NCBI RefSeq assembly: GCF_002754475.1
Contig: NZ_PEFL01000001.1
Location: 1,736,001 to 1,800,000, forward strand
DNA: 64,000 nucleotides
Direction of reading: 5' to 3'
DNA from: Comamonas sp. 26
Lineage (GTDB): Bacteria; Pseudomonadota; Gammaproteobacteria; Burkholderiales; Burkholderiaceae_C
Below are positions 13,878 to 43,517 of this stretch, piece by piece (positions within the stretch are counted from its first letter, which is position 1; each line of letters begins with the position of its first letter). The notes under the pieces are model-generated. The model was not told the DNA's origin, did no database searches, and saw only the letters and a program-made list of their open reading frames with translations. A program made the translations under genes and the position numbers.

Positions 13878-14180
13878 CTAGCGGCAAGACACATTGCGCC
13901 AGTTGAATTTTCCGTCGTTGAAAAACTCAGTCCAAATAGACATTGGTGGCTCCTTGCGCAAGGAGAAAGTGATCTGGTTTGGAATATTGGGCCCAAGCGC
14001 CGCTAATTCCCCCATCTTGGTATAGACCTTCACAAAGCAGTTGCTGAGTTCTTCGCTGCCGTTGGAGTCGAGAACGACCCGATAGGTTTTGACGAACTCT
14101 TCCCAGTCCTGGCGTTTCGTTACATAGGTATGCAGGCGCACATAAGCTCGGTTCGTGCTCTTGATGCTGGGCTTTTTCAT
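13878..14180 (-). CDS. Unrecognised ~100-aa family, copy 1 (NWRNVSCR C-terminus)
   Basis: A 100-aa protein without signal peptide or membrane segment. The start at 14180 has a strong ribosome site (AGGAGGG). It aligns end to end with copies at 41465-41776 and 43209-43517: shared features are NRAYVRLH, a GSE turn, AALG, PNQITFS, WTEFFNDG and the terminal WRNVSCR. The Cys two residues from the end is invariant in all three. A DNA motif (GATACAA, about 12 nt, TGCAAAA) lies 63-97 bases upstream and is also found before the other copies. I do not recognise the family; the alternating hydrophobic pattern suggests a small beta fold. Confidence 0.75.
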   Translation of the reverse strand: MKKPSIKSTNRAYVRLHTYVTKRQDWEEFVKTYRVVLDSNGSEELSNCFVKVYTKMGELAALGPNIPNQITFSLRKEPPMSIWTEFFNDGKFNWRNVSCR

Positions 14181-14419
14181 GTTGTGCCCTCCTGGGAATG
14201 TCTTTGCAGAGAGATGAAGCGGAGTGAAATCAAACTTGGCTTTTGACATTTTTTTGCAGCCTGAGCAGATTTGTATCAAGCAAGAAGCTGAAAAAAATGT
14301 AGGCGCTTTTGCTGACCCGCTAAGAGTTGGCGCTGTCATGAAACCGTGCAGGCATAAAATCCCGTCAGATCACGAGCTTGCTTGGGAAAAGTGAGCAGGG
14401 CGCTGAAACTCTTAGACTC

Positions 14420-14433
14420 TCCCACTCGATGGT
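14420..14433. repeat. Candidate left attachment repeat (copy of guaA 3' end)
   Basis: The 14-nt TCCCACTCGATGGT is identical to 45285-45298, which lies in the last codons of guaA. The integrase gene is beside the guaA copy and an alpA-type gene beside this one, as expected at the two ends of an integrated element. Confidence 0.55.
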
Positions 14434-14466
14434 TAACAAGCTCTTGAAAGCCTTATGCGGCGCGGC

Positions 14467-14721
14467 TTACAGCTCGGCGATGGCTGTAGATACCATCCCA
14501 GATGCCATGCGAATAGATGCACTGGCGAGAGGCGCAGCGGCCTTTTCATTCGCCTGGCGTCGGGACTCGATCCAGGCATCGATCTCGGCTTCATCCCATG
14601 CCACGCGACGTGGCGAAAGCACGATGCGTTTGGGAAACCGGCCAATGGATTCCAGTTTCAGAATCCAGCGATCAGACAAAGGAACTTTAGCGCAAAGCGC
14701 CTTGCGGTCTATCAATTTCAT
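14467..14721 (-). CDS. AlpA-family excisionase/transcriptional regulator
   Basis: An 84-aa MerR-like winged-helix protein of the AlpA prophage regulator type: LIDRKALCAKVPLSDRWILK recognition part, then GRFPKRIVLSPRRVAWDEAEIDAWI, the usual wing and closing helix. AlpA-type proteins control excision or integrase expression in P4-like elements. Good ribosome site (GGAGAG) before ATG 14721. It lies 33 bases inside the candidate attachment repeat, at the opposite end from the integrase. Confidence 0.85.
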   Translation of the reverse strand: MKLIDRKALCAKVPLSDRWILKLESIGRFPKRIVLSPRRVAWDEAEIDAWIESRRQANEKAAAPLASASIRMASGMVSTAIAEL

Positions 14722-14738
14722 AGTGCTCTCCAGTAAAA

Positions 14739-14765
14739 AAGCCCGCTCATGGCGATGGCGGGCTT
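14739..14765 (-). terminator. Hairpin terminator upstream of alpA
   Basis: Stem AAGCCCGC/GCGGGCTT, with a T tract on the minus strand. It would end transcripts coming from the gene at 14994-15323. Confidence 0.65.
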
Positions 14766-14993
14766 GGGTGAAATGGTTGTGTGTTTGCGAAAGTTTTTCG
14801 CAGCGCTTTAGGGATTGACTGATCCGACGGATAAAAATAAAGACGCGTATCCGTCCAAGCTGGCGTGGTGATGGCTCTGTGTGCCCGGATGCTTGGACGA
14901 CCTGGTCGGCAGCGGCATGGCCAGATTGCAGTGCGCTAGGCAGTGCTAGCCACAGGAGATTTGAAAAGGGTAGGTCTGCCTGCTCAGGTGTAG

Positions 14994-15323
14994 CTAAACG
15001 TTGCTCAGTTCCCGGCTACGGGCTGGGACCAGAGCGCAGCTCACCACCGTTGCCAGCAGTTCGCTGCGGGGCGGGCGGCAATGCAGGGTGTGGATCTGCG
15101 CACGCTCCAGCTCCACCACCACGGCCGCGCCGGGCTTGAGCGTTGCCGCGTGCTCCAGCCAAAAGCGCTGGGCGCTGCGGCCTGTCCACGTCACGCGCCA
15201 TGGCTCGATGTGGTGGGTGCCCAGCCGGTCATAAAGCAGCATTTGCAACTGAAAAGCGCCGCATCGGGCCATGCTGGCTTGCGGCGCGGTTTTGCTGAGG
15301 TAAAGCGTTCCTGTGTGGCGCAT
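14994..15323 (-). CDS. Hypothetical phage-type protein
   Basis: A 109-aa protein with a good ribosome site (AGGAGCC) before ATG 15323. It is arginine-rich and alternates strand-like segments (AFQLQMLLYD, PWRVTWTG, AAVVVELE, LLATVVSCALVP), which could be an OB-fold single-strand-binding-type protein, but I recognise no diagnostic motif. It lies in a run of small leftward genes at the left end of the island. Confidence 0.55.
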   Translation of the reverse strand: MRHTGTLYLSKTAPQASMARCGAFQLQMLLYDRLGTHHIEPWRVTWTGRSAQRFWLEHAATLKPGAAVVVELERAQIHTLHCRPPRSELLATVVSCALVPARSRELSNV

Positions 15324-15342
15324 GTTGGCTCCTGATTGGGCA

Positions 15343-15376
15343 TAAAAAAACCCGCGCGGCGTAGGCCGGGCGGGCT
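15343..15376 (-). terminator. GC-rich hairpin with T tract
   Basis: On the minus strand a GC-rich hairpin is followed by seven T (A7 on plus at 15344-15350). It is the likely end of the small gene at 15400-15585. A close relative occurs at 16933-16968. Confidence 0.6.
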
Positions 15377-15399
15377 GGGGTTGAGTGGGGTGTCTACTT

Positions 15400-15585
15400 C
15401 TACGGAGTCTTATTTCGTCCGCGATAGTTCAGGTCACTGGCTGAGTAATTCTCGCGTTTGCGCCAGTCCATCTGGATAGGGCCGGCATGATCGGGAGGAT
15501 AGGTGATGCGTTCTTTCTCCCGGCTGAGCTCCCAACGCTTGGCCTCCACGGTATGGTGGACGGTTGATTTTTTTATTTTGCTCAT
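15400..15585 (-). CDS. Small hypothetical protein (61 aa)
   Basis: A charged 61-aa protein rich in Lys, Arg, Glu and Tyr (KIKKSTVHH; WRKRENYSASDLNYRGRN). The start at 15585 is chosen as the ATG after which the sequence looks protein-like; its ribosome site is weak. No family recognised. Confidence 0.45.
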   Translation of the reverse strand: MSKIKKSTVHHTVEAKRWELSREKERITYPPDHAGPIQMDWRKRENYSASDLNYRGRNKTP

Positions 15586-15999
15586 TGGCAAGGATCTCAG
15601 TAAATTGACAGACAGTTGTCCCACGGTACATGGTTGCTGCAGAAGGGTCTATCGATTTCTTTTTCAGGGTGCGAGGAGGTGTCTCGCCTCAGGGCGACAT
15701 CCTTCGGCGATGTTCTAAGATTGAAAACCAAAGGTCTTTCCTTTCACCTATACTCATTGGACTCGCTGTTCAGGTTGTTCGCCCCGACAGCGTCTGTCTG
15801 ACACCTATGCCGCCCCTTGGCCGCCGGTAACCGCTCTTTCACGCAAAGCACGCGGTCGTCACTCCCCCTCCTGCGAACTCTCCCAGACCCTGAACATTTT
15901 TATGGGTCTGCGCAGTCCCCCCAGTTTCTGGCGCGGGCACTCATCTCTCTCTCTTTCATTTGACGGCTATCACGCCTCAGCGTGCGGCTGTCCGTATTC
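15586..15999. other. Long leader region upstream of the infA cluster
   Basis: About 410 bases without a convincing gene, next to the rightward cluster at 16000-16823. It contains a hairpin (ACATC-CTTCGGC-GATGT near 15700), a C/T-rich tract and the promoter region. It may be a long 5' untranslated leader, as in cold-shock genes (inference). Confidence 0.4.
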
Positions 16000-16218
16000 A
16001 TGCTGCAAAAAAATATTACAGAGCAGATCGGCCGCTATGTGGTCACACCTCTGACACAACCCATTTCCAGCGGCCAGTTCCTGGCTGCCGTTTCCATTCG
16101 ACGTGGCACTTATGACCGCGTCATTCGATTCATCCCTCAGTTCTCTAACGAATCGCTCGCCTCCAACTACGCCCTGACTGAAGGGCGAAACATGGTGATG
16201 AGCCAAAGCTTGAACTGA
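16000..16218 (+). CDS. Small conserved-looking protein upstream of infA
   Basis: A 72-aa protein starting [11 protein letters not shown] at 16000. The composition is ordinary: amphipathic, with [14 protein letters not shown] and [12 protein letters not shown]. It has no signal peptide. It precedes infA by 31 bases on the same strand, so it probably shares the transcript. I do not recognise the family. Confidence 0.6.
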
Positions 16219-16249
16219 ATGCCTATTGCTTTTATTCAAAGGAGACACT

Positions 16250-16510
16250 TTGGCTAAAGAAGAACTAATCGAGATGCCCGGTCGCGTTGATGAAGTCCTG
16301 CCAGATTCGCGCTTTCGCATAACTCTGGAAAACGGCCATCAGCTCATTGCCTACAGCGGCGGAAAGATGCGCAAGCACCGCATCCGCGTGCTGGCTGGCG
16401 ACAAAGTGACCGTAGAAATGTCTCCCTACGACCTCAACAAAGGGCGAGTGACTTTCCGTCATCTTGCTCCTCGCACTGGCGCGGCACCGGCCTTCAAGCG
16501 CCGCCGCTAA
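16250..16510 (+). CDS. infA: Translation initiation factor IF-1
   Basis: S1-type OB-fold factor that occupies the ribosomal A site with IF-2 and IF-3. The core is complete: [58 protein letters not shown]. Start TTG at 16250 is chosen because AGGAGAC sits 5 nt upstream and it gives the standard N-terminus; no ATG fits. At 86 aa it is longer than usual (about 72) because of a basic tail ([14 protein letters not shown]). Burkholderiales often carry a second infA; this looks like that copy. Confidence 0.92.
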
Positions 16511-16571
16511 GCCCGCTCAACTAATTACCCGCTCATCGCTGAAATGCCTGAGCAACCTTTGAAAGAACACT

Positions 16572-16823
16572 ATGCAATCCAATCTTTATGTGACCAATCT
16601 CAGCTACAACGTTGACGGTGATGCCCTGCGCACACATTTCGGCAGCTGCGGCGATGTCGTCGCTGCTGACATCATCATGGACCGTGAAACTGGACGCTCG
16701 CGCGGCTTCGGCTTCGTGGAAATGAGCAATCCGGAGCAGGCACAAAAGGCTATCGAAACGCTGCATGACCAGCCGCTCGGCGGCCGCGCTCTGGGAGTGG
16801 CCCTGGCCCGTCCACGCAAATAA
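16572..16823 (+). CDS. RRM-type RNA-binding protein
   Basis: A single RNA-recognition motif, 83 aa. RNP2 (LYVTNL, residues 5-10) and RNP1 (RGFGFVEM, about 43-50) are intact with their aromatic residues. Proteins of this kind are often cold-induced. It lies 61 bases after infA on the same strand, and the cluster ends in a strong terminator, so infA and this gene probably form a translation/RNA-chaperone unit. Confidence 0.92.
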   Translation: MQSNLYVTNLSYNVDGDALRTHFGSCGDVVAADIIMDRETGRSRGFGFVEMSNPEQAQKAIETLHDQPLGGRALGVALARPRK

Positions 16824-16849
16824 GCTTCTTCGACCTCTAAGAGGAAGCG

Positions 16850-16880
16850 GCCCACGCCAAAAGCGTGGGCTTTTTCTTTT
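16850..16880 (+). terminator. Terminator of the infA-RRM cluster
   Basis: Perfect 8-bp stem GCCCACGC/GCGTGGGC with loop CAAAA and T-rich tail. Confidence 0.9.
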
Positions 16881-16932
16881 TGGGAATCGCTACATGCTGC
16901 TGACCGCTTTTTGAGGAAAGCATCACAGACAC

Positions 16933-16968
16933 CAAAAAGCCCGCGCGGCGTGGCTGGGCGGGCGGGGT
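16933..16968 (-). terminator. GC-rich hairpin with T tract, end of BRO gene
   Basis: Hairpin built from GCCCGC/GCGGGC elements; A5 on plus gives a T tract on minus. It lies downstream of the leftward antirepressor gene. Confidence 0.55.
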
Positions 16969-16985
16969 TTTGAATGAAATAGGGC

Positions 16986-17012
16986 GCTAGCGCTTATGTA
17001 TCAAGCGCTAGC
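16986..17012. repeat. Dispersed palindromic intergenic repeat
   Basis: GCTAGCGCTT / AAGCGCTAGC inverted repeat with a 7-nt spacer, followed by AGCTAT. It is the best-formed copy of a dispersed element with the signature AGCGCTnGCAGCTAT; related copies lie at about 3416-3463, 10495-10548, 21361-21400, 25645-25680, 34425-34460, 36241-36265, 36901-36930, 58448-58490 and 60786-60835. Confidence 0.7.
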
Positions 17013-17041
17013 AGCTATGAAATTGATAAAGCTGTTCCGCG

Positions 17042-17758
17042 TTACCGCAGCTGCAAACGGCCTTGTTGCGCTGGCTGGCTTTGCGCAGCAGTTGGCGCGC
17101 CGCTTTCGCGCCTGCGTGCTTCATATTCGGTGCGCTCGGCCATGCGCTGGGTGCAGGCCGCAGCCAGTCTGGCCAGCGTGGCATCGCTCAGCATCAAATC
17201 CGTGCGAATGGCCTGGGTCAGCTGGGGCAGCGTCATCAGCATGGCACCGGCCTCCATCGGCTTCACATAAGGGGCGAGTGCATCGCCCGGCCCTTGGGTG
17301 AAAGACAGTAGCAGGCGGGTGAAGTGAGCAGGTTCGTCACCCTGCATTGCGGCATCAAACACGGCCTGATAAACCTGTAGCGTGGCCGCGTGGGCCAGCT
17401 GGCGCGCGTGCTCCGTGCGGCGGGTGTCGGGCTGTTTGGCATAGCCGCCGGTCTGGCGAATGCTGGGCAGCACCTCGCTGGTCACCCACTTGGCAAACTT
17501 GCGCGCCTCGGGCTTGCGGCTGCGCAGGACAAGGGCGTAGAGGCCGGATTCGTTAACGACGCTGATGTTTTGAAGGCCACCAAGGGTGTCGCTTGAAACG
17601 ACACCCTTTTCGTCTTCATCAAGATGCATCAGCGAGTCGCGGTGGTTTTTGATGCCTAGAGCTGCACAAACATCAGCGGCTGCGAACCATTGCTGATTGT
17701 CGTGACTGATAACGCGAACGGGAAAAACGCCGAAGTTAAAGGGGGTGATGTCAGCCAT
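17042..17758 (-). CDS. Phage antirepressor, BRO-N domain
   Basis: A 238-aa phage regulator. The N-terminal BRO-N domain (about 1-105) is clear: FPVRVISHDNQQWFAAADVC, ALGIKN, LHLDEDEKG, VNESGLYALVLRSRKPEARKFAKWV. The C-terminal part (about 125-225) contains VYQAVFDAAMQGD and ATLARLAAACTQRMAER, a version of the tail shared with the Rha and KilA-N genes in this island. ATG 17758 has a GGAGG site. A C4-type antisense RNA lies in its leader, so translation is probably silenced by RNA pairing. Confidence 0.88.
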   Translation of the reverse strand: MADITPFNFGVFPVRVISHDNQQWFAAADVCAALGIKNHRDSLMHLDEDEKGVVSSDTLGGLQNISVVNESGLYALVLRSRKPEARKFAKWVTSEVLPSIRQTGGYAKQPDTRRTEHARQLAHAATLQVYQAVFDAAMQGDEPAHFTRLLLSFTQGPGDALAPYVKPMEAGAMLMTLPQLTQAIRTDLMLSDATLARLAAACTQRMAERTEYEARRRESGAPTAAQSQPAQQGRLQLR

Positions 17759-17814
17759 TGCGGCCTCCGTAGATTGTGCTTTTGCTACAACCACCGCCTT
17801 TGACGCCAACCAAA

Positions 17815-17902
17815 GGGCGGTGACTCGAAGAGGTTGGCGTACCGGACAATCCTGCGGACAAACCGGCGAGCCTCGCGGCTCCCCCTCCGAGCCACCATAA
17901 AA
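17815..17902 (-). ncRNA. C4-type antisense RNA, upstream of BRO antirepressor
   Basis: The minus strand reads GGTGGCTCGGAGGGGGAGCC-GCGA-GGCTCGCCGG, then TCCGGTACGCCAACC and TCACCGCCC, matching the layout of phage C4 antisense RNAs. The terminal segments CGCCAACC and CACCGCC are complementary to GGTTGGCG and GGCGGTG in the leader just before the ribosome site (17791-17811). C4 RNAs block antirepressor translation in P1/P7-like phages. A second copy with the same layout is at 24721-24802. Confidence 0.75.
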
Positions 17903-18081
17903 CTGGGGCCACAGACGACAAAGCCGCACGACTGCGATTCGGGTGCGGCTTTGTTGTCACCGCAGGAAATTGTTTCAGGACGCCAATCCCGATCACGCTT
18001 TACTGGCGTGACGGTATGGAGTGTACACAAAGGTGATACTTTTTTGTGGAGCTTCGTTGGCGATGCGCAGCGCCCAGACAC

Positions 18082-18104
18082 AAAAAAGCCCGCGTGTGCG
18101 GGCT
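18082..18104 (-). terminator. Terminator of the TPR membrane protein gene
   Basis: Stem AGCCCGC/GCGGGCT with loop GTGT; A6 on plus gives a T tract on minus. Confidence 0.8.
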
Positions 18105-18120
18105 GGTGAGATTGAAGTGT

Positions 18121-19431
18121 TTAAGCTGGCTCTGCTTCCGGCTCGTTATCGCCTCGAAGCTTGTTAAGCAGCCGTTGGGCGCGCTCTACAAGCTTCTCTA
18201 CCTCTGGATTGCTGTCTCCTGCATATCGCTGAATGACTTGCTTATAGGTTTTCATGGCTTCTTCCTGTCGATCCAATTCACTTAGTGTGAGGCCTTTATA
18301 AAGTAGAGCTTCTGCCACCAGCTTGCGCAATTCAAAGCTTTCGTCTTGGCCATAGCGGTCAACGATTAAGTCGTAGGTTTGGATCTCTTCTATGTTGCGG
18401 CTCAATTTACCTAAATCAACGCCTTTGTTGAAAAGTGTGGTAGCGGCATGCTTGCGTACAGCTGGATCAGGGTCATTGCTATAGCGTTGATCGATAAGGT
18501 CAGTAACTCTGATCTTATCTTCTGAGCGATGTAATCGATCCAAAGCTACGCTTTTGTTATAGAGCGCTTTTGCAACTTGTGCACGCACGGTAGGTGTGGA
18601 TTCAGTGCCATAAAGTTGGTCAATCATGTCATACAAAGGAATTGCTTCTTGAAAGCGCTCTAGCTCACATAAAGCAATCGCACAGGCGCTGATAATATTT
18701 GCGTGTCTATCGGGTGAAATGTTCTCTGTGGCAGCCTTATCAAGAGCTTTCTGAAAGCTGATTAGAGCGGATTCAAAGCGTTTACTAGCGAAATCTTCAA
18801 GACCCCGCACATAATGGTCATCAGCTGTGAATTGATCCTCAGGCTTTGCATTCAAAGCTCGGCTTGCATTGGTCACTGCAGCTAGCGCTTCTAACGTGGC
18901 AGGATCAGAGTTTTCTAAGTCTTTGCTGATGAGAATTTTTTGGCTTGCTTTATCCAGGAGGTCTCTGAATAGATCAGCATATCTTTCGTGCTCAGATGCT
19001 AAATTTTTTAATTTTTCAATCTGAGTCATTAGTCCAGAATTGTTTTGGGAAAACCAGTTTCTGGCTTCTATCTCCGCATGCTTTTTAGCTTCTTCTATTG
19101 CATGGTGCTTGGTCGTGAAAAACACTGCCAATCCAGCAAGGATAGAAATTATGGCTATAAAAATTCCTAGCAATGTCGAAGCATTGGCTATAGAAGACAT
19201 GTGATTGGCTTGCTGGCTTGTCCAAAGGCCAAGGTCTCCAACACGCTTGTCCTGTGAGTCAAGACGGTTGGCCGTTACTTCTTTGAGGACGGTGAGCTCT
19301 TTGTCCAGCACCTGAATTTGCTGTTGAACCTGCTGAATATCTGTCTGAGTTGCCGGCTGGCTGGGTTCGGATGCCGAGGCGACGAACGCAAGGCAAAGGC
19401 CAAGAAGTAGGAAGATTTTTCGCGCGATCAT
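18121..19431 (-). CDS. Membrane-anchored coiled-coil/TPR protein
   Basis: A 436-aa protein of unknown role. Order: signal or anchor sequence (1-20), Gln-rich coiled coil (28-65), a transmembrane helix (about 85-106), a second coiled coil (110-165), then TPR-like helical repeats (about 205-430), several containing an A-LYNK / TLFNKGVDLGKL / ALLYKGLTLSEL pattern with a spacing near 45 residues. The repeats probably face the cytoplasm and bind a partner. The gene is AT-richer than its neighbours and stands alone, suggesting recent transfer. No enzymatic domain seen. Confidence 0.75.
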   Translation of the reverse strand: MIARKIFLLLGLCLAFVASASEPSQPATQTDIQQVQQQIQVLDKELTVLKEVTANRLDSQDKRVGDLGLWTSQQANHMSSIANASTLLGIFIAIISILAGLAVFFTTKHHAIEEAKKHAEIEARNWFSQNNSGLMTQIEKLKNLASEHERYADLFRDLLDKASQKILISKDLENSDPATLEALAAVTNASRALNAKPEDQFTADDHYVRGLEDFASKRFESALISFQKALDKAATENISPDRHANIISACAIALCELERFQEAIPLYDMIDQLYGTESTPTVRAQVAKALYNKSVALDRLHRSEDKIRVTDLIDQRYSNDPDPAVRKHAATTLFNKGVDLGKLSRNIEEIQTYDLIVDRYGQDESFELRKLVAEALLYKGLTLSELDRQEEAMKTYKQVIQRYAGDSNPEVEKLVERAQRLLNKLRGDNEPEAEPA

Positions 19432-19504
19432 GTGAACTGGGTAGGCAGCAATGTTGTCTCAGTGGTTTGAAACAATTGTAAGCACGACCTAGCGCTGAAA
19501 TCTT

Positions 19505-19726
19505 TCAGTTCGCGGTTTGGCTTTGTCCAGTTGTTGCAGGGAGAGGTCTTAAAACGCGCTGTTGATGCTCCAGCAGCAACCGCATGCACAGGGTGCAGAT
19601 AAAAGCATCTCTGTCGGGTGCCGTGCGGTACAAGTCCACCAGTTGCTGCAACTTGAATCCGCCATCAGAATTCAGCACATCCGAAATGGCGTTGTCGTCG
19701 GTCACGATTGAATTGAGGGTGTTCAT
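19505..19726 (-). CDS. Possible small protein (73 aa) divergent from DUF4145 gene
   Basis: Frame starting MNTLNSIVTDDNAIS at 19726, with an ordinary-looking sequence (QQLVDLYRTAPDRDAF, CMRLLLEH). Its ATG overlaps the ATG of the rightward gene at 19725 by two bases on the opposite strand. No clear ribosome site, so support is weak; it may be only a shadow of the 5' region of the opposite gene. Confidence 0.3.
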   Translation of the reverse strand: MNTLNSIVTDDNAISDVLNSDGGFKLQQLVDLYRTAPDRDAFICTLCMRLLLEHQQRVLRPLPATTGQSQTAN

Positions 19727-20375
19727 GGCAGTTTTGGTAATGCAGTGCCCGCATTGCGGGGCGGAAAACATGACGTTTAGCGTCATGCAGGCGGTGGGGC
19801 ATCTGATGCCCGGTAAAACTTCTGTGGTGGCTTTATGTGCCGGATGCGATGAGCCTGTGCTGGCATCGTTCCGTACAGGAGCGGCGCAAGCTAATTACGT
19901 ATTGGCAACGCAGGGCAATCTGCTGAACGATCGCGGCTTCACTTCACTGGGGGTTTGGCCTTCGAAGCAGTCTCTGAATATTCCTGAGTCATTGCCCGAG
20001 AGGGTTGCCAAGAATTTCATGGAGGCTTTGAAAATCCGCAATGCCAAGCATTGGAATGCTGCGTGCGGTAGCTATCGGCGTTGTCTAGAGATCGCGCTGA
20101 AAGAATTTGCGCCTGACATTGAGGCGAGGATGCTGGAAAAGCGAATCGACAAGCTGGCTGCGGAGCACCGTATTACCCCAGCCCTTCAGGCGTGGGCGCA
20201 TGAGTTACGGCTTGACGGCAACGAGGCTCTGCATGGCCTTGAGGATGCCACTGAAGAGATGGCCGAGCAGATGCATCACTTGACGTATTTTCTGCTGACC
20301 TATCTGTACACCTTGCCTCAGCAGATCGATGGGGTGCGTGCTCGGCGTCAGGCGGCTGCGGCCACAGTGGCGTAA
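19725..20375 (+). CDS. Zinc-ribbon plus DUF4145-like protein
   Basis: A 216-aa protein. Start ATG 19725 has GAGGG upstream; the longer frame from 19584 is not family-like. Two CxxC pairs (C8PHC11, C38AGC41) form an N-terminal zinc ribbon. The C-terminal part (about 105-200) is helical and reads as DUF4145: MEALKIRN, RRCLEIALKEF, LEKRIDKLA, HELRLDGNEALHG. DUF4145 occurs in phages and near restriction or defence genes; the role here is unknown. Confidence 0.75.
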   Translation: MAVLVMQCPHCGAENMTFSVMQAVGHLMPGKTSVVALCAGCDEPVLASFRTGAAQANYVLATQGNLLNDRGFTSLGVWPSKQSLNIPESLPERVAKNFMEALKIRNAKHWNAACGSYRRCLEIALKEFAPDIEARMLEKRIDKLAAEHRITPALQAWAHELRLDGNEALHGLEDATEEMAEQMHHLTYFLLTYLYTLPQQIDGVRARRQAAAATVA

Positions 20376-20389
20376 GTACTCCTTGCTGA

Positions 20390-20623: not shown

Positions 20624-20864
20624 GGATGAGCGGAGATCTAGAGTTTCTTTGCAGAAGAAGGGGAGGTATCAACTGATGCCCGCCAGACGCGCCAGTTCCT
20701 CACGGTCTGAGGTGGCAGTCATCAATATTCCTTTGCTATGAAAAAAGCCCGCAGAAGGCGGGCTGGCATACGAACAGGGTAGGAAAGTCCTTATTCCACA
20801 AGAGCTTACAGCGGGCACAGGCAGCAGGAATAGCCTGAAAAACTCCACTTTTCAAGGAGTTGCC

Positions 20865-35056: not shown

Positions 35057-35506
35057 CTACACCACAGGCCGGTGCACCAGCACCGGAATGCTGCTGTTCA
35101 CCAGCACGCGCTGTGTTTCGCTGCCCAGCAGAATCCCGGCAATGCCCTTGCGTCCGTGCGAAGCCATGCAGATCAGGTCGCAATTGCTGTCCTTGGCTTG
35201 CTGGATGATGGCCTGGTGCACCGAGAAGTTCATGGTCCTTGCCGTCTTGCACTCCACGCCCTCGGCCTTGGCCATGTCCTGCACCGCCTGCAGCACCTTG
35301 TCGGCCGTTTTTTCGGCGTCTTTGCGTAGCTCGCTGGGGTTGTAAGTCACCATCCCCTCGCTGGCATACATCAAGGCGGAATAATCCGGCATCACATACA
35401 GCACCGTCACTTCGGCGCCTTGCTCCTTGGCCAGTTGCAGGCCCGCGTGCAGCGCGGCCTCAGAGAGTTTCGAGCCGTCTGTAGGAATCAAAATGTGCTT
35501 GAACAT
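35057..35506 (-). CDS. Universal stress protein A family, copy 1
   Basis: A 149-aa USP domain. The ATP-binding motif G-2x-G-9x-G/S is visible in SHGRKGIAGILLGSETQRVL, and the N-terminal ILIPTDGSKLSEAA is standard. Cytoplasmic stress protein, often induced by low oxygen or growth arrest. ATG 35506 has AAGGAGGC. The spacer upstream is a diverged copy of the one before copy 2, so the array arose by tandem duplication. Confidence 0.93.
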   Translation of the reverse strand: MFKHILIPTDGSKLSEAALHAGLQLAKEQGAEVTVLYVMPDYSALMYASEGMVTYNPSELRKDAEKTADKVLQAVQDMAKAEGVECKTARTMNFSVHQAIIQQAKDSNCDLICMASHGRKGIAGILLGSETQRVLVNSSIPVLVHRPVV

Positions 35507-35612: not shown

Positions 35613-36062
35613 TTACACCACCGGGCGGTGCACCAGCACCGGAATGCGGCTGTTGACCAGCACGCGCTGGGTTTCGCTGCCCAGCAAAATGCCGGCAATG
35701 CCCTTGCGGCCGTGCGATGCCATGCAGATCAGGTCGCAGTTGCTGTCCTGCGCGGTCTTGATGATGGCCTGGTTGACGGAGAAATCCGTCGCCCGCACCG
35801 TCTTGCAAATCACGCCTTCGGCTGCGGCAATATCGGTCGCGACCTTGAGTACCTTGTCGGCTTCCTTCTCGGCGCTTTTGGTCATTTCTGTTGCGTTGTA
35901 GGCCATCAGGGCCTCAGAGCCGTAGATCATGGTGGCGTAATCCGGCATCACATACAGCGCCGTCACTTGTGCACCTTGTTCCTTGGCCAGTTGCAGGCCT
36001 GCGCGCAGTGCAGCCTCCGAGAGCTTCGAGCCATCCGTAGGAATCAAAATGTGCTTGAACAT
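35613..36062 (-). CDS. Universal stress protein A family, copy 2
   Basis: A 149-aa USP, the closest relative of copy 1 (same ends, same LVHRPVV tail). ATP motif in SHGRKGIAGILLGSE. AAGGAGGC site before ATG 36062. A perfect FNR/Anr-type palindrome TTGAT-GGAA-ATCAA lies at 36187-36200, about 125 bases upstream, so low-oxygen induction is likely (inference). Confidence 0.93.
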   Translation of the reverse strand: MFKHILIPTDGSKLSEAALRAGLQLAKEQGAQVTALYVMPDYATMIYGSEALMAYNATEMTKSAEKEADKVLKVATDIAAAEGVICKTVRATDFSVNQAIIKTAQDSNCDLICMASHGRKGIAGILLGSETQRVLVNSRIPVLVHRPVV

Positions 36063-36295: not shown

Positions 36296-36754
36296 TCAGC
36301 CGCTGACGGGGTCTGCGCGGTGCACCAGCACCGGGATGCTGCTGTTGGTCAGCACCTTCTGGGTTTCGCTGCCCAGCAAAATGCCGCTGAGCCCCTTGCG
36401 ACCGTGCGAAGCCATGCAGATCAGATCGCACCCGCCTTCCTGCGCCTGCAGGATGATGGCCTCGGCCACCGAAGGACTAGTGGTGCGCACGCTCTGAATC
36501 GCCAGCCCGCGCGCGCCAGCCAGCTCCTCGGCAAATTTCAGCACGGCATCTGCTTCGGCGTTGGCATTTTTCGTCAGCTCGGTCGTGTCATAAGCGGTCA
36601 TCGAGCGCGACCCATAGATCAACGCACGGTAATCCGGCATCACATACAGCACCGTCAACTTGGCGGCCTTCTCGCCGGCCAGCTCAATCCCCGCGCGTAC
36701 GGCCGCTTCGGACAACTTGGAGCCATCTGTCGGAATCAAAATGTGTTTGAACAA
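36296..36754 (-). CDS. Universal stress protein A family, copy 3
   Basis: A 152-aa USP, more diverged from the other two (about half to two-thirds identity by eye). ATP-binding motif SHGRKGLSGILLGSETQKVL. Its C-terminus differs (HRADPVSG). ATG 36754 is preceded by GGGAGAG. It is the first gene of the leftward array. Confidence 0.92.
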   Translation of the reverse strand: MFKHILIPTDGSKLSEAAVRAGIELAGEKAAKLTVLYVMPDYRALIYGSRSMTAYDTTELTKNANAEADAVLKFAEELAGARGLAIQSVRTTSPSVAEAIILQAQEGGCDLICMASHGRKGLSGILLGSETQKVLTNSSIPVLVHRADPVSG

Positions 36755-36937
36755 CGGTCTCTCTCCCTGCGCGGTCGCGCATCTGTTGTGGCAAAAGCCC
36801 CAGCCCCCTCTGACTGGCGGCGGAACTGCCCATCATGGCAGCGAATCGCGATTGGCATAAAGACGCAAATTCTGCGTATGCAGCCAAAACAGCTGTCAGC
36901 CCTTGACCATCAAGCGCTGACAGCTATCAAAAGCAGA

Positions 36938-38053
36938 CTACCGGAACAGCATGCGCAGAGTGCCTTCATCGGGTGCAGGGGGCTGCTTGGCTGAAAGGGA
37001 TGGGGCAGAAGCAGGGCGCTTGCCGGGGGGATTACTGGGGTACAGCGGCAGCGTCACCTGCTTTTCGCGGTGCTGGGCGCGCTGGGTCAGCCGCTGGGTG
37101 CAGGCCGTTGCCAGCGTGGCCAGCTGGGCATCGGTCGCGCCGATGATCTCGCCGTCGGCAATGCGCTGCGGCAGGCTGTTGAAGGAGACCACCATCTGAT
37201 CCGTCGCAATCGGCTGGGCATGGGGCAGGGTGGGGCGGCCCTGGCTGTCGTAGTTCAGGTTCAGCAAATAGCGGCTGTGCTGCCACTCTTCCGCATCACC
37301 TTGCATCATCGCGTTGAATACCGTGCGCTGCACCAGGGCGGACGCCTCGCATGCAGTGGCGAAAGCAAGCTCCATGCGCTTCGGATCCGAAAGCTCAAGC
37401 GTTGAAGTCGTTTCCACAACTTGGCCTTCATAACCCATAGGCAGTTTGCTGATCAGATAGCTGCGCGCTTCCTCGTAGCGGCTGGCTGGTAGCTCCTCGT
37501 ACTTGTTGACTCGAAATTTCTTTTGAAAGCGTGCCCAGGTCTCGCCATGCTTCTGAATACCGGCATCGACAATAGCCTGAACAATCTCGCGCAGGTCTTG
37601 CTTTTGAGTCGGGTTTAGACGGGTGTAGTCGATTGCAGGTGCTGCGGGCTGCACAGCATCTAGGAACACGCGAATGACTTTGAGCTGGAATGCTGCGCTG
37701 ATCCACGCTGCGTAGGCGATGACCAGTTCCTTGCAGGCATAGGTGCCTCCGTTGCGGCCTTCCTTGGTTTTGAAACTCTGCAAATCTGTAGAGTTTCCGA
37801 TTTCATGAATGAGCGCTTGCGTTTGCTCCAGACGCATGAATAACGCGGGTTGATGCTTGGCTTCTCCGCCTGCGGCTTTGTGCAAGTCGTTGAGAGAGTA
37901 CAGGTCATCGGCAAGTCGAACCTTGGTGCCTGCAACGGACAGTGCTGTAGAATTTGACAAGATTGTTCCTTTGTTGATGCTTTGGGACACTTCACTCGAA
38001 GCCCTGCCGGTTGCCGCCGTCGGGGCTTCACCTTTTTCAGGCCTGCTTTTCAT
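36938..38053 (-). CDS. KilA-N domain antirepressor
   Basis: A 371-aa phage regulator. The KilA-N DNA-binding domain lies at about 40-140 (VRLADDLYSLNDLHKAAGG, HQPALFMRLEQT, KEGRNGGTYACKELVIAYAAW, AFQLKVIRVF). The C-terminal module (about 225-345) closely matches the Rha-family protein at 24856: YLLNLNYDSQGRPTLPHAQP, IATDQMVVSFNSLPQRIADG, ATLATACTQRLTQRAQHREKQV. The start ATG 38053 lies inside the end of the Arc-type gene, so translation is coupled. It has no C4 RNA in front, unlike the other two. Confidence 0.85.
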   Translation of the reverse strand: MKSRPEKGEAPTAATGRASSEVSQSINKGTILSNSTALSVAGTKVRLADDLYSLNDLHKAAGGEAKHQPALFMRLEQTQALIHEIGNSTDLQSFKTKEGRNGGTYACKELVIAYAAWISAAFQLKVIRVFLDAVQPAAPAIDYTRLNPTQKQDLREIVQAIVDAGIQKHGETWARFQKKFRVNKYEELPASRYEEARSYLISKLPMGYEGQVVETTSTLELSDPKRMELAFATACEASALVQRTVFNAMMQGDAEEWQHSRYLLNLNYDSQGRPTLPHAQPIATDQMVVSFNSLPQRIADGEIIGATDAQLATLATACTQRLTQRAQHREKQVTLPLYPSNPPGKRPASAPSLSAKQPPAPDEGTLRMLFR

Positions 38054-38207
38054 GATTGGCCTCTTCGGCTTTGCGACTTGCCTCTAGCCGTGACGCGATC
38101 TCGCTGTTCAAGGATCGGAAATTGTCAACAGCCTTGTGCTTGAGCCACTGCTTAAGCTCCTCGGGAAGGCGTACCGGAGTCGGAGCAATTGCTTTGTGTT
38201 CTTTCAT
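38037..38207 (-). CDS. Arc/MetJ-type ribbon-helix-helix protein
   Basis: A 56-aa Arc-type repressor: strand PTPVRLPEELKQWLKHKA, then SLNSEIASRLEASRKAEE, the N[SR]EI..RL signature of Arc family helix B. ATG 38207 has AAAGGAA. It is the first gene of the KilA-N operon, overlapping it by 17 bases, and faces a second Arc-type gene across an operator-rich gap. Likely autoregulates both directions. Confidence 0.88.
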   Translation of the reverse strand: MKEHKAIAPTPVRLPEELKQWLKHKAVDNFRSLNSEIASRLEASRKAEEANHEKQA

Positions 38208-38228
38208 GGGATTTCCTTTGGTTGAGGT

Positions 38229-38285
38229 GGACTCCATTTGACTCCATGGGGTTGATGGAGTCAATAGGACTCGTTGAGATGAGTC
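38229..38285. promoter_or_regulatory. Operator array between divergent Arc-type genes
   Basis: Inverted repeat TTGACTCCAT (38238-38247) / ATGGAGTCAA (38255-38264) with a 7-nt spacer, flanked by further half-sites: GGACTCCAT (38229-38237), GGACTC (38267-38272) and GATGAGTC (38278-38285). Repeats of this kind at a divergent promoter are typical of Arc-family operators. Confidence 0.75.
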
Positions 38286-38307
38286 ACTTTGCTGCCACAA
38301 TTGAGCG

Positions 38308-38841
38308 ATGGAAGAAAAACCGCGTACCACCCCGTATCCGCTTCGCATGCCCGATGAGCTTCGTGCACAGCTCGAAGAGTCGGCCAAACTCGGTGCGCGA
38401 AGCCTGCATGCAGAAATCATTGCTCGACTGGAAGGCACGTTCTCCAAAACTGCCGCCAGCCCGGCGGTAGATCTGTCACGTACGGTGCAAGAGCTGGAGT
38501 CTTTGCAGCAGTTGGGCACGCTGAACTATGAGCTGCAGCGAGCCAACTACCGCATGGATACTGCCAAACTGCAATTCAGCAGTGCTTACGCCGTGCTTCA
38601 GAAGGCACTAGGTTCCGGCGATAAGGATGCGCAGGAAGACGCCAGCGAAAAGTGCTCTGAATTGCAGGTAAAAATGAACGAGCTAAGTGCAGAAATTGCC
38701 CAACTTGAGGAGCAGATCGGTCGAGTCCACTTTGATCGAAAATTGAATGGACTCAAGGAGCTTCGCGATGTTCAGTCTGTTAGCGCATCGGTTGATGTAC
38801 GCTTTAAAGATCAGGCTTCAAAAAAAGCTAGTGATCATTAA
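38308..38841 (+). CDS. Arc-type DNA-binding protein with long coiled-coil tail
   Basis: A 177-aa protein. An Arc domain (residues 8-48: PYPLRMPDELRAQLEESA, SLHAEIIARLEG) is followed by a coiled coil (about 60-150), making it much longer than usual Arc proteins. The tail may give tetramers or bind a partner. It is divergent from the 56-aa Arc gene and likely regulated by the shared operators; it ends at a strong terminator. Confidence 0.85.
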   Translation: MEEKPRTTPYPLRMPDELRAQLEESAKLGARSLHAEIIARLEGTFSKTAASPAVDLSRTVQELESLQQLGTLNYELQRANYRMDTAKLQFSSAYAVLQKALGSGDKDAQEDASEKCSELQVKMNELSAEIAQLEEQIGRVHFDRKLNGLKELRDVQSVSASVDVRFKDQASKKASDH

Positions 38842-38882
38842 TTCATGCACATGATCAGTCACAGGTGACTGACTTTTGCTGC

Positions 38883-38914
38883 AAAAAAAGCCCGCGAAAT
38901 GCGGGCCTTTTTAT
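38883..38914 (+). terminator. Terminator of the Arc coiled-coil gene
   Basis: Stem GCCCGC/GCGGGC with loop GAAAT, flanked by A7 and T5. Confidence 0.85.
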
Positions 38915-39282
38915 TTGAGTAAGTAACGCTTCTAGCCCTAATCGGCAATGTAAAGAACTATATTGCCATTTTTATCGCTAATTGCGGGTGCAGCCATCGT
39001 TGACCTCCATACCGCTCGGAAGTGACCTTCATGCTTGAGTCGACCAGCGGCTGCAGCGACCCTGAGCAGTCGTTCAACAAAAGCTGAAAAACAGGCATTC
39101 ATATCCACGAAACCCGACCCTCATCGGGAAAAAAATTCAATCTATTTTTGCACCGTATGTCGCGGATTCCTCAAAGCCATAAACATGCGCATGCATTGCA
39201 TATAGACATATTCGGTTTGCAGCTTATAGTATGTGTATCGCTATGTTTCATCAGTCTTTTCAATCAAAAAAAGGAAATAGCA
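38915..39282. other. Intergenic region with degraded sequence
   Basis: About 370 bases with no supported gene. The segment CGACCCTGAGCAGT at 39057-39070 recurs at 39639-39652, so both gaps hold fragments of one repeated unit. The 3' part is AT-rich and includes the promoter of the 73-aa gene. Confidence 0.45.
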
Positions 39283-39504
39283 ATGCAAAGATATGCAGAT
39301 ATAAATAACGATTCTGGCGTTATTGGCTACGAGATTTCATCTGCCTCCATAACTGTTTGGTTTGATGGTACAGCTAGACCATACACCTATAGTTACGGCG
39401 TCGCTGGGCAGAGCCATGTTGAAAAAATGAAACAACTTGCTCAATCTGGTGACGGTCTTAACGCATACATAAATTACAACGTCAAGTTTAAATACGATCG
39501 ATAG
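39283..39504 (+). CDS. Small KTSC-like protein
   Basis: A 73-aa protein, start ATG 39283 (AGGAAA site). The pattern SGVIGYEISSASITVWFDG, then PYTYSYG, GDGLNAYINYNVKFKYDR recalls KTSC-type domains (IGYD...L.V.F..G..Y.Y...I...Y). AT-rich and monocistronic. No functional assignment is safe. Confidence 0.6.
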   Translation: MQRYADINNDSGVIGYEISSASITVWFDGTARPYTYSYGVAGQSHVEKMKQLAQSGDGLNAYINYNVKFKYDR

Positions 39505-39766
39505 TCTCCAAATGAAGTAAGCATCGGGACTTAACATTTTATTCAAGCGATGATTTCGCCGTCGCTTGATTCATATTGGAGTGACCGCTGTCTCTTATGG
39601 TCATCGGCCACTTTTTGCTGACTGAGGCTGTTGGAGCTCGACCCTGAGCAGTTATATAAGTGCAAAAAGCAGCCGCAGGCGGAAGTGTTTTTTAAGCTAA
39701 CGCTCCCTCAGGGGAATCTTGATGATGTGTTGCTTAAGATCACTCGGTAATTTTTAGGGGAAAACC

Positions 39767-40096
39767 TTGTATTCAAAAAAAATTCTTCCCGGATTTGCTC
39801 TTTTCTTCGTCCTTGTTAGTGGGGAGGTAAGTGCAAACGCGAATATTGACAAAATGACAACCTATGCTGTTCTTCTTGGTCGTGCAATAGGTTGTGGGAT
39901 CGAGGTCAAAAAGCCAATGGAGAGGGTTGGTGCTTGGATGGACAAGGTATTTCCGCCGGGTTCAGAAGATCAGAAGGTTCTTCTTCCTATTTTTGTTCAG
40001 GGGGTGATGGACAATTCGAAAGCTCAAACTGAAGGGCGAAGTCCAGATACGTGCAACCAAGTTCGAACATCATTTGGCAAAACTAAGTGGCCTTAA
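39767..40096 (+). CDS. Small secreted hypothetical protein
   Basis: A 109-aa protein with a signal peptide (about 1-24, ending VSANA). Start TTG 39767 is chosen because AGGGG lies before it and no ATG is in reach. Mature part has two cysteines (GCGIEV; PDTCNQVR). AT-rich. Not recognised; possibly a periplasmic protein acquired with the island. Confidence 0.55.
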   Translation: MYSKKILPGFALFFVLVSGEVSANANIDKMTTYAVLLGRAIGCGIEVKKPMERVGAWMDKVFPPGSEDQKVLLPIFVQGVMDNSKAQTEGRSPDTCNQVRTSFGKTKWP

Positions 40097-40273
40097 AACC
40101 AAGGCATCGACATCTACACCTATCGACTCAATGTCTGGAATTGGCTGTGGATTCAACCGGTCACTACCAGAAGCCTAGTCAGCCGTAACCGGCACAGGCG
40201 GGCAGTTCAACCGGAATACGCTCTAATCAGATTTCAACTGGCAGCCCTTGCTGCGGGAGGCGGACGTGGGATC

Positions 40274-40375
40274 GTCGATTTTGTGCATGGTCTGCGGTCT
40301 GTATGGGCAAAGGGTTTCCTCTGGGCAGGAATGGTCAGTGTGGTCGACCAGGTACCTCCTGGGTGTTTGTCGCCA
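40274..40375 (-). pseudogene. Fragment of a nitrobindin-like gene
   Basis: This stretch matches the 3' part of the heme-binding-like gene at 41937-42590 (region 41998-42100): both read TTGTGCA(T/G)GGT..TGCGGTC, GTGGGCAAAGGG (here TATGGGCAAAGGG), AATGGTCAG (or GATGGTCAG), GACCAGGT and GGGTGTTTG (or GGGTTTTTG). Indels break the reading frame, so it is a decayed duplicate. Confidence 0.65.
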
Positions 40376-40498
40376 AATTGAGTAGCGATATCCCGTGCGG
40401 TGTGACCGATGATCGTGGTGACCTATATCCCGTGTTCAGGCAGGGCAGGGAAGCCCTGCTCGAAACTAAGCGGGCCGAGGCCCGCGCTTTCCTCTAGG

Positions 40499-41179
40499 TC
40501 AGTTGGCAGCAAAGCAGTACATCAGCCCTGCGCTGCCGCTTTGTTGGAGCTGGTCGATGCTGCAGCCGCGCGTGCCGTGCGATGAGTTCCACGAGGCGTT
40601 GGCCACAGGGTCGGGGTTGGTGCCCTTGTGGTCGTGGTGGCCCACGATGGCAGAGCCTCCATCGCTCTTGGTCCAGTTGCCGCAGGTGGTGTCCTTGCCG
40701 GGCTCGGGCACGGCCACGGTGCCGTCAGGGCGCGAGCCGGTGAGGATGTCGTGGCGGTTGACCTCATCGCCAAAGCCCGAGACGATCTCGCCCTTCTCAG
40801 TCAGCGAGGTGTCTTTGCCGACCTTGGCATTGGCGCTGTGCAGGTCGGCCACGTTGGTGGCTATGACCACGCCCTTGGCGTTGCGCCATGGTCCGTTGCC
40901 GATGCGGTCGCGCGCATTCACAGCCGGCTGTCCGTTCAGGGCCGCATTGCTCAGGTAGGCGCGCCAGGTTTTGTTGCCTGCCCCCACGCTTGCGGCCAGC
41001 GATTGGCAGTAGCGGTCAGCGCCGGCCAGGCTACCGAGGTCGCCGCCCTTGCCGGGGTTGGTGCTGGTGATGAAGAAGCTCATGGGGTTGCCGCCCGATG
41101 ACCCCATGGTGCCGCAACCAACGACCAAAGCAACAGCCGCAATGGCGGTGCTGGCGGAAAGAACCAAACGACGGGACAT
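40499..41179 (-). CDS. Lectin-like lipoprotein (C-type lectin fold)
   Basis: A 226-aa lipoprotein: lipobox VVGC (Cys22). The mature domain starts FFITSTNPGKGGDLGSLAGA followed by DRYCQSLAASVGAGNKTWRAYLS, the signature of a DUF1554/endostatin-like C-type lectin fold; conserved cysteines recur (TTCGNWTKS, GTRGCSIDQL, LMYCFAAN). Probably outer-membrane and may bind glycans or host/cell-surface ligands (inference). ATG 41179 has AGGAG. Confidence 0.82.
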   Translation of the reverse strand: MSRRLVLSASTAIAAVALVVGCGTMGSSGGNPMSFFITSTNPGKGGDLGSLAGADRYCQSLAASVGAGNKTWRAYLSNAALNGQPAVNARDRIGNGPWRNAKGVVIATNVADLHSANAKVGKDTSLTEKGEIVSGFGDEVNRHDILTGSRPDGTVAVPEPGKDTTCGNWTKSDGGSAIVGHHDHKGTNPDPVANASWNSSHGTRGCSIDQLQQSGSAGLMYCFAAN

Positions 41180-41373
41180 GGCAGGCTCCTGAGCAATAGT
41201 GGAGCCCGCAGGCTACCGTAACGTTGTGTCAGCGGCAATATGGGTAGTTGTGCGAGTTGGACCCACCGCCAAGGCAAGCTGAAAATGCCTGCCGAGCGTT
41301 ATCTGTAAATCCAGTTACAAGTAGATTGTTGGACATCGCCAGAGAAAAAACCGGAATATGGATTGACTAAGCC

Positions 41374-41407
41374 AAAAAGGCAACGCGGTTGAATGCGTTG
41401 CCTTTTT
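41374..41407. terminator. Bidirectional terminator
   Basis: Perfect 13-bp stem AAAAAGGCAACGC/GCGTTGCCTTTTT with loop GGTTGAAT, between the lectin-like gene promoter and family copy 2. Confidence 0.9.
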
Positions 41408-41464
41408 GCTGGGGCCAGCCTTCAGAGGGTTCTGGGCCGTCGCATGCCTATGCTGTGTTTTGCC

Positions 41465-41776
41465 TTAGCGGCAAGACACATTGCGCCAGCTGAATTTGCC
41501 GTCGTTAAAGCTCTCTGTCCAGACTGCCATGGCAGGTGCTTTGCGCGAAGAGAAGGTGATCTGGTTGGGGATTTTGTTGCCCAGGGCGGCGGGTCTGCCT
41601 ATCCGGTCAAGAACTTGCACTCCGTATTGCTTGGCCTCTTCACTGCCGCTTGAGTTCAGAATCACGCAGTACGCGCTGGCGAAGTCATCCCACAGGTGAT
41701 GCTGCTTGATCACGTAGCTGTGCAAGCGCACGTAAGCCCGATTGGGATTTCTGCTCGTGAGGTTGGGTTTATTCAT
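41465..41776 (-). CDS. Unrecognised ~100-aa family, copy 2
   Basis: A 103-aa member of the three-copy family: NRAYVRLHSYV, ILNSSGSEEAKQYGVQV, AALGNKIPNQITFSSRKAP, WTESFNDGKFSWRNVSCR. ATG 41776 with AGGAG. The upstream motif (GGTACAA, 12 nt, TGCAAAA) lies at 41824-41858. It is the most diverged copy but keeps the invariant C-terminus. Confidence 0.75.
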   Translation of the reverse strand: MNKPNLTSRNPNRAYVRLHSYVIKQHHLWDDFASAYCVILNSSGSEEAKQYGVQVLDRIGRPAALGNKIPNQITFSSRKAPAMAVWTESFNDGKFSWRNVSCR

Positions 41777-41936
41777 GATCAAGACTCCTGCTTGTTCGAA
41801 AAGATTCGGTGGAGATCGATCGATTGACACATTTTTGCAATCGCAACTTCTTTGTACCGAACAGTTTGTGTAACAAGCGTAGGGGTCTTGGCCGTGAGGG
41901 GATAGGGCTTAGGGGCCGCGCTGTAGGCTGTGTCGG

Positions 41937-42590
41937 TTATATGGCGCTGGCCGATGCTTCGGCAGCTTGGGCCGTGGGGTTGGGTGTGGGTTCGCCGATC
42001 TTGTGCAGGGTGTTGCGGTCAGTGTGGGCAAAGGGCTCGCTCTGGCCGGGGATGGTCAGCGTTGTTTCCTGCTCATACGACCAGGTGCCGTCTGGGTTTT
42101 TGGTGACGGTGATGGTGTAGGCATCGGTTCTGAACGCGTACTCCAGAAACGGGTTGCTTGAGATGCCGTTCACGGTAGAGCCACGTACGGCTTTGAGGGT
42201 AAAGGTGGTGGCGTCCGCCGTGGTTTTGCCCGTGGCCATGGCGGTTTGCCCACGCGGAATGGTCAGTGTCTGGATGATGTTGCCGGTGGCGGGCTCCCAC
42301 AGCCAGTAGCCGACCTGGTCGTGAAAGGTTTCGGGGTCATCGGGTTTGACGATGCGCGTGTGGTAGCGCAGGCCGTAGAAGAGCTGGGGGCCGTTGGTCT
42401 GGGCATCGATGGGCTGGCATTCCATGTGCTCGATGAAGGCCTGCTTTTCCGGGCCGTCGGCCTTGGGGTTGATGTCCAGCCCGCGTTTGCCGGTCCAGAT
42501 GCCGGCCATGCCGGTGAAGGGGCCGAGGTTGGCCAGGGTGTTCACATCGGGCTCGGGCTCTGTGTAAATGTCTTTGGGGTAGTTTTCCAT
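41937..42590 (-). CDS. Nitrobindin-like heme-binding beta-barrel protein
   Basis: A 217-aa protein of the nitrobindin/THAP4 (DUF1794) type. NLGPFTGMAGIWTGKRGLDINP contains the GxWxGxG-like lid motif; a ten-strand barrel follows (LFYGLRYHTRIV, GYWLWEPATGNIIQTLTIPRG, YTITVTKNPDGTWSYEQETTL) and ends in HTDRNTLHKIG. Such proteins bind heme and react with NO or peroxynitrite. A low-complexity Ala/Pro tail ends the protein. No clear ribosome site; a decayed relative lies at 40274-40375. Confidence 0.8.
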   Translation of the reverse strand: MENYPKDIYTEPEPDVNTLANLGPFTGMAGIWTGKRGLDINPKADGPEKQAFIEHMECQPIDAQTNGPQLFYGLRYHTRIVKPDDPETFHDQVGYWLWEPATGNIIQTLTIPRGQTAMATGKTTADATTFTLKAVRGSTVNGISSNPFLEYAFRTDAYTITVTKNPDGTWSYEQETTLTIPGQSEPFAHTDRNTLHKIGEPTPNPTAQAAEASASAI

Positions 42591-42706
42591 AGCTTGAACG
42601 GGCTTTCTCGTTGAATCTGGTGCGGCCCAGTTTACAAGCCGTTGGCTGAGGCGAGCTTGACAGCTATCAAGCTGTCAGGGTGCGCTGCTGCAGGATCTGC
42701 CGCTCG

Positions 42707-43111
42707 TCAGGTGCTCTCTTCGGTGGTGAGCGTAAAGCGTGCGCTTTCGCCGCGCTGGGCGGCTTCACGCGTGAGGTAGATCATCACGCGGTAGCTGGTG
42801 CCCCGTTCGACGAGGAAGGTGCAGGTGTTGCTATCAGCCGAGCCGTGACACAGCGACTCGGCACTGCCGCCCTTGAGGACGTTCATCCGGCTGGATGGGT
42901 TGTTGGTGTTGAATGTGACGATGATGCGCTGGAAGGGCCGCGTTTCAAGCCCGTATTGCACGACGCCATTTCCAGTGACCTGGCCGCTGTAGGAGCTGGT
43001 GTAGTCGCCCGGCCTGGTGAAGGCGACCTGTGCCATTGAGATGCTGCTGAGGTGCAGGGTCAAGAGACTGAGCAGGGCAGCAGTTGCAAGCATCGGTTGG
43101 AAGCGGGTCAT
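42707..43111 (-). CDS. Secreted hypothetical protein with one disulfide
   Basis: A 134-aa protein with a signal peptide (about 1-28, SISMAQ-VA). Mature part is beta-rich with a Cys pair (SLCHGSADSNTCTF), likely a disulfide. PFQRIIVTFNTNNPSSRMN and YRVMIYLTREAAQRGE suggest a pre-peptidase-like or adhesin-type beta-sandwich, not proven. AGGAG site before ATG 43111. Confidence 0.65.
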   Translation of the reverse strand: MTRFQPMLATAALLSLLTLHLSSISMAQVAFTRPGDYTSSYSGQVTGNGVVQYGLETRPFQRIIVTFNTNNPSSRMNVLKGGSAESLCHGSADSNTCTFLVERGTSYRVMIYLTREAAQRGESARFTLTTEEST

Positions 43112-43208
43112 GCAACATCTCCTGGTTGTGTTGGACAGGATGGCGCCCCTTGGCGCGGCGGCGGGTGTCTATGCCGACAGCCGGACCACCATATCCCGTC
43201 GCTGCGCC

Positions 43209-43517
43209 CTAGCGGCAGGAGACATTGCGCCAGTTGAATTTTCCGTCGTTAAAAAACTCTGTCCATACCGACATGACGGGGGCCTTGCGGTAAGAAAACG
43301 TAATCTGGTTAGGGATCTTTGACCCCAGTGCAGCGGGCTGGCCGTTTTTGTCAAAAACCTGGACGATGAAGAGCGTTAAGTCTTCACTGCCGTTAGTGTT
43401 GAGTACGACGCGGTAGGACTGGGTGAAGAGATCCCAGTCTTGCACTTTGGCGACATAGGTATGCAGGCGAACGAACGCGCGGTTGGCGTTCTTGGCGGCG
43501 GGGTTGATGCTTCTCAT
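43209..43517 (-). CDS. Unrecognised ~100-aa family, copy 3
   Basis: A 102-aa member: NRAFVRLHTYV, VVLNTNGSEDLTLFIVQV, AALGSKIPNQITFSYRKAP, WTEFFNDGKFNWRNVSCR. ATG 43517 with AGGGAG. The motif GATACAA-11 nt-TGCAAAA lies upstream at 43563-43596. Closest to copy 1 in the C-terminal half. With copy 2 it flanks two secreted/heme-type genes. Confidence 0.75.
   Translation of the reverse strand: MRSINPAAKNANRAFVRLHTYVAKVQDWDLFTQSYRVVLNTNGSEDLTLFIVQVFDKNGQPAALGSKIPNQITFSYRKAPVMSVWTEFFNDGKFNWRNVSCR

Follow-up and report, generated by a model that had tools for sequence, protein, structure and literature searches.

We analysed a 64,000-nucleotide stretch of the Comamonas sp. 26 genome (contig NZ_PEFL01000001.1, positions 1,736,001 to 1,800,000; hereafter the window) that carries three copies of a gene for a small protein, which an initial annotation had described as an unrecognised family of about 100 residues. 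The three open reading frames (ORFs) are where that annotation placed them, all on the minus strand: copy 1 at 13878-14180 (P0001, 100 aa), copy 2 at 41465-41776 (P0002, 103 aa) and copy 3 at 43209-43517 (P0003, 102 aa), with the stop codon counted in. The proteins do align end to end, P0001 being 58% and 67% identical to the other two over the full-length alignment, and 54 of 103 columns are invariant across the three, including the C-terminal WRNVSCR. A profile made from the same three copies matched exactly these three in the 4.7-Mb genome (3 contigs; E 7e-61 to 5e-59). Between them, the proportion of nonsynonymous differences over the whole gene (pN, 0.20-0.24) lies well under that of synonymous differences (pS, 0.66-0.71), so the reading frame is real. 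pN was below pS in all 11 family pairs computed, and the family is a genuine coding gene under strong purifying selection.

The family occurs in 11 of 53 Comamonas genomes, with 19 copies in total and at most three per genome. Altogether 32 loci were gathered, many of them the same place taken from two collections, and they reduce to 15 distinct proteins. Outside the genome of origin, there was no match in 399 genomes of the same taxonomic family (141 genera), 399 of the order and 398 of the phylum, with a limited number of first-look candidates scored per genome. A scan of genome_contigs (84,980 species), which depends on exact conserved words and so lets distant relatives escape, confirmed six of 41 pattern stretches as family loci, all in Comamonas. 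The viral contig collection held seven loci, on seven contigs; annotated phage and plasmid collections searched with P0003 at E 0.01 gave no match, and a literature search limited to listings and abstract openings found nothing on the family. As far as these samples reach, this is a lineage-restricted orphan family, known only from the genus Comamonas.

The claim that the family is unrecognised was borne out: Pfam, NCBIfam, PHROGs, PADLOC and PDB chains and folds gave no convincing match, and a hidden Markov model built from the three copies recovered only Comamonas proteins and no clear known family. The best E-values were 0.069 for Pfam and 0.0068 for PADLOC across the 15 family members (the latter in one member), and 0.17 for NCBIfam and 0.099 for PHROGs with the three window copies only. 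An RxLR effector protein in PDB matched at E 0.0024 with a three-row alignment, weakening to 0.03 with 15 rows, and was rejected as well.

Each copy is preceded by a conserved upstream block on the minus strand (14181-14310, 41777-41890 and 43518-43630 for copies 1 to 3) with the motif TACAA..TGCAAA..TGT at 14246-14275, 41827-41856 and 43566-43594, respectively. A comparison of upstream sequences from 12 of the 15 distinct genes, near-duplicates omitted, showed the words CTAC, TACAA, CAA, GTnA and GGAG to be common to all 12; an alignment was also made of all 15. Among diverged copies, identity is 45-60% in the proximal 125 bp vs 30-43% farther up, and proximal exceeds distal identity in nine of nine pairs computed. 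The pattern TACAA-N8-13-TGCAAA-N2-5-TGT, which was defined after viewing the copies it matches, has three matches in the 4.7-Mb genome, each preceding a copy, and none in the reversed control. This distribution argues for a putative private control element and against a general regulon. For the CCTACA part, found at 14298-14307 upstream of copy 1 as AGCGCCTACA, the idea of a genome-wide regulon gained no support: that sequence occurs 11 times in the genome vs eight for the reversed control. No RNA structure was found in the block, Rfam gave no match there at the loci of five relatives, and in the window Rfam matched tRNA and C4 RNAs only.

AlphaFold models from two different query proteins, both using the same 15 alignment rows, reached mean predicted local distance difference test scores (pLDDT) of 85.4 and 85.1 with the same layout, from which we infer a fold of two helices and a five-stranded sheet. 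Foldseek found no match for the P0001 model in PDB or BFVD at E 0.001; the P0003 model was compared by VIA-align only, which does not exclude structures outside its listed rows. A possible resemblance to the actin capping protein CapZ alpha, a larger eukaryotic protein, lies below the tool's trust level and at about 10% identity; it would be one of fold, and we claim no family link. The family proteins are basic (isoelectric point 8.8-9.9), and since their highest 19-residue mean hydropathy is merely 0.45-1.19, no membrane or signal stretch is apparent (no signal-peptide program was used).

The initial annotation had taken strong selection on an invariant C-terminus as a sign of a modified, anchoring or partner-binding tail. 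The selection is there (pN 0.05-0.11 vs pS 0.53-0.61 over the last 23 codons of the window copies), and WRNVSCR is indeed invariant in the window, but not across the family: 12 of the 15 distinct proteins end in WRNVSCR, and one each in WRNISCR, WRSVSCR and WHNISGH. As only the WHNISGH end is without Cys, this residue is retained in 14 of 15. The tail reading fares less well. Helix 1 is equally conserved (mean column identity 0.91 vs 0.89 over the last eight columns), in both models WRNV belongs to the final sheet strand rather than lying outside the folded domain, and a homologue lacking the conserved C-terminus was found, the one ending WHNISGH, an outcome that the initial annotation had named as refuting. 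In this distant homologue, L032, the Cys and the final Arg are gone, yet the frame is open and alignable. In these models, the conserved C-terminus looks like an ordinary part of the fold.

Two of the three copies lie within an integrated element. A 14-base sequence, ACCATCGAGTGGGA, occurs exactly twice in the window, on the minus strand in the same orientation: at 45285-45298 in the 3' end of guaA (45281-46897), likely the attachment-site copy on the integrase side, and at 14420-14433, likely the far element end. Allowing up to two mismatches gave three matches vs 0.26 expected, a count that none of 100 shuffles reached. A tyrosine integrase gene with an Arm-DNA-bind_3 domain (Pfam; 43741-44970, minus strand) lies just inside one repeat, and a gene for an AlpA-family regulator (Pfam PF05930, E 4.7e-10; 14467-14721, minus strand) just inside the other; by its end repeats and genes, the element fits a guaA-site integrative island with int and alpA. 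Phage genes occur in it as well (portal, lysozyme, Rha, BRO-N and KilA-N). With its ends set by the repeats, the element spans about 14.42-45.30 kb. That makes copies 2 and 3 cargo nearer its integrase end, copy 3 being 223 bp from the integrase gene, and puts copy 1 about 240 bp beyond the far repeat, with a tRNA-Gly gene (ccc; 13201-13274, plus strand) on its other side. Copy 1 may be the leftover of a neighbouring element. The description of the copies as lying at both edges of the island thus holds insofar as they are at or near its ends, but copy 1 is outside and the other two are inside at the same end.

In C. suwonensis (L004) and in genome G036 (L037), the stretch leading up to the far repeat is conserved and the core carries one and three mismatches, respectively. 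The core was also present at the guaA end of all seven further Comamonas genomes fetched (in one with one mismatch). The guaA end of G048 has a related integrase and no family copy within 7.9 kb, the sole copy of that genome lying elsewhere. G028 has two 11-base guaA cores 9.3 kb apart (L064, 1785 and 11118), apparently from an independent insertion at this site. Two simple histories gained no support: that copy 1 was inserted into a site otherwise empty in G007, where the sequence differs, and that guaA adjoined ctaA until the island arrived, the distance between them varying widely across genomes. Within the element, C4 antisense RNAs (Rfam RF01695; 24720-24805, plus strand, and 17813-17902, minus strand) adjoin the Rha and BRO-N genes, and a trio of an IF-1 gene, an RRM RNA-binding protein gene and a 72-aa ORF (16250-16823, plus strand) recurs near the family gene in L012 and L041.

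The neighbours of copies 2 and 3 are also on the minus strand. Cluster c7 (42707-43111), 97 bp downstream of copy 3, has a signal-peptide-like N-terminus by eye and no Pfam match; cluster c6 (41937-42590) is a THAP4-like heme-binding beta-barrel protein (THAP4_heme-bd, E 1.1e-21); and cluster c44 (40499-41179) is lipoprotein-like by eye, with a DUF1554 match below the curated cut-off. Beyond c44, a short stretch at about 40266-40344 resembles part of c6 and hints at past tandem duplication of cargo. Farther into the element, three universal stress protein genes (35057-35506, 35613-36062 and 36296-36754, minus strand; Pfam Usp each) sit in tandem between phage lysis genes and a KilA-N gene; across 300 nt, the DNA of the other copies shares 64-78% identity with that of the first.

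Across Comamonas we counted six kinds of context. In seven genomes the gene lies in the lexA region together with universal stress genes, c7 and c6; in G036 (L035) the order is copy, c9, universal stress gene; and in G027 (L042) the gene stands between a zapA-like gene (match below the curated cut-off) and a universal stress gene. Three genomes (the window genome, C. suwonensis and G036) have both the fourth and the fifth kind, on the integrase side and the AlpA side of the guaA-type element, respectively; the AlpA-side copies precede a tRNA, and viral contig L010 also has one of this fifth kind. The sixth, beside the small gene c8, comprises three genus copies and six viral contigs, one of which (L013) ends before c8. 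Surroundings vary within this last kind: they are prophage-like at L041, include transposase-type genes at L034, and at L005 form an integrative and conjugative element (ICE) of the PFGI-1 class with TraD and PilL2, ICE-like and not a prophage; on viral contig L015 the copy lies in an accessory region with integrase, RdgC and S24 repressor-like genes. A universal stress gene is at most 7 kb away in four of the six kinds (the first four). Outside the guaA element, nine of the 19 copies in the genus have universal stress genes for neighbours, and by eye their surroundings show little or no trace of phage. Homologues are not always at element edges or beside genes for secreted proteins, a pattern that the initial annotation had proposed to check; c7 adjoins only eight of the 26 listed copies, as the next gene 95-97 bp downstream and in one gene order throughout. 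Some 1.5 kb from the zapA-side copy, a cobalamin riboswitch (L042, 8230-8471) lies beside a receptor-like gene (by eye).

Starting from what was observed directly (the family, the selection on it, its gene contexts, the end repeats of the island and the conservation upstream), we favor, at a probability of roughly 40%, a Comamonas-restricted accessory orphan family whose genes each have a conserved upstream block and whose product, a small, basic and soluble protein expressed during stress or lysogeny, functions within the cell by binding or as an adaptor. Guided by the contexts seen, guaA-site islands, prophages and an ICE-like element would carry the gene as accessory cargo, and other copies would be retained beside chromosomal stress genes. 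A binding or adaptor role inside the cell is suggested by the size, the charge, the conserved helix residues and the neighbours, and expression would probably be controlled via the upstream block, perhaps by the protein itself.

The most serious competitor, though we consider it unlikely, is a factor serving the mobile element itself, expressed from the lysogen or island and acting in superinfection exclusion, anti-defence or anti-phage activity. The copies near integrase and RdgC genes in prophage-like L015, near the guaA-island integrase and on ICE-like L005 would fit such a role, as would the family's presence on seven contigs of the viral collection. It sits less easily with the seven lexA-locus copies, which show no phage gene recognised by eye (two read over 20 kb, the other five over five genes each side), with the zapA-side copy, where none was seen by eye either (an 11.6-kb contig with 1.3 kb beyond the gene), or with the unconvincing PADLOC result. 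For L035, a ninth such copy, the nearby DNA does include an integrase-arm fragment, at a distance of about 7.6 kb. Less probable is that the protein acts against nitrosative or redox stress together with the THAP4-like heme protein and universal stress proteins, its near-invariant Cys being redox-active. The constant copy-c7-c6 order and spacing at eight loci, the heme-binding match of c6 and the widely retained Cys all point that way, but neither c6 nor c7 occurs in the DNA read around the c8-side, AlpA-side, L035 and zapA-side (short stretch) copies, and L032 does without the Cys.

It is tempting to speculate further that gene and block make up a self-regulating, self-contained unit, whose protein binds that block with a fold new among DNA- or RNA-binders, and that this unit has spread as a ready-made stress module among the guaA islands, prophages, ICE-like element and stress loci of a single genus; we regard this as a long shot. 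Should the upstream block turn out to be a private operator, we would have a tidy example of an orphan gene travelling with its own regulation. We give less credence still to a C-terminal tail serving modification, anchoring or partner binding: SCR extends past the last strand in both models, at lower model confidence, and Cys is kept almost throughout, but WRNV, most of the motif, is predicted within the sheet, L032 has no Cys, and a Cys second from last fits neither a CAAX box nor a sortase signal. That the protein is an orphan immunity-type member of a toxin system is highly improbable.

What the analysis adds is a well-delimited, genus-restricted family; its upstream block is conserved, and its fold, predicted with fair confidence, found no strong match. 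The family invites comparison with 'moron' genes, the accessory genes of prophages. The L015 copy resembles these in having a conserved block upstream and in its place within prophage-like DNA, flanked by repressor-like and integrase genes; the nine genus copies beside universal stress genes, with little or no sign of phage, do not. The element itself can be set beside GIsul2 and other guaA-site islands, which insert at the guaA 3' end at the site GAGTGGGA and carry int and alpA, as reported (PMC9376610). The window element appears to differ from GIsul2 in its phage structural genes, its universal stress genes and its copies of this family. Like GIsul2 as reported, it has the 8-mer GAGTGGGA, here within its 14-bp repeat, and an integrase gene and an AlpA gene, here at opposite ends. 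Our finding locates cargo of this kind on a guaA-site island.
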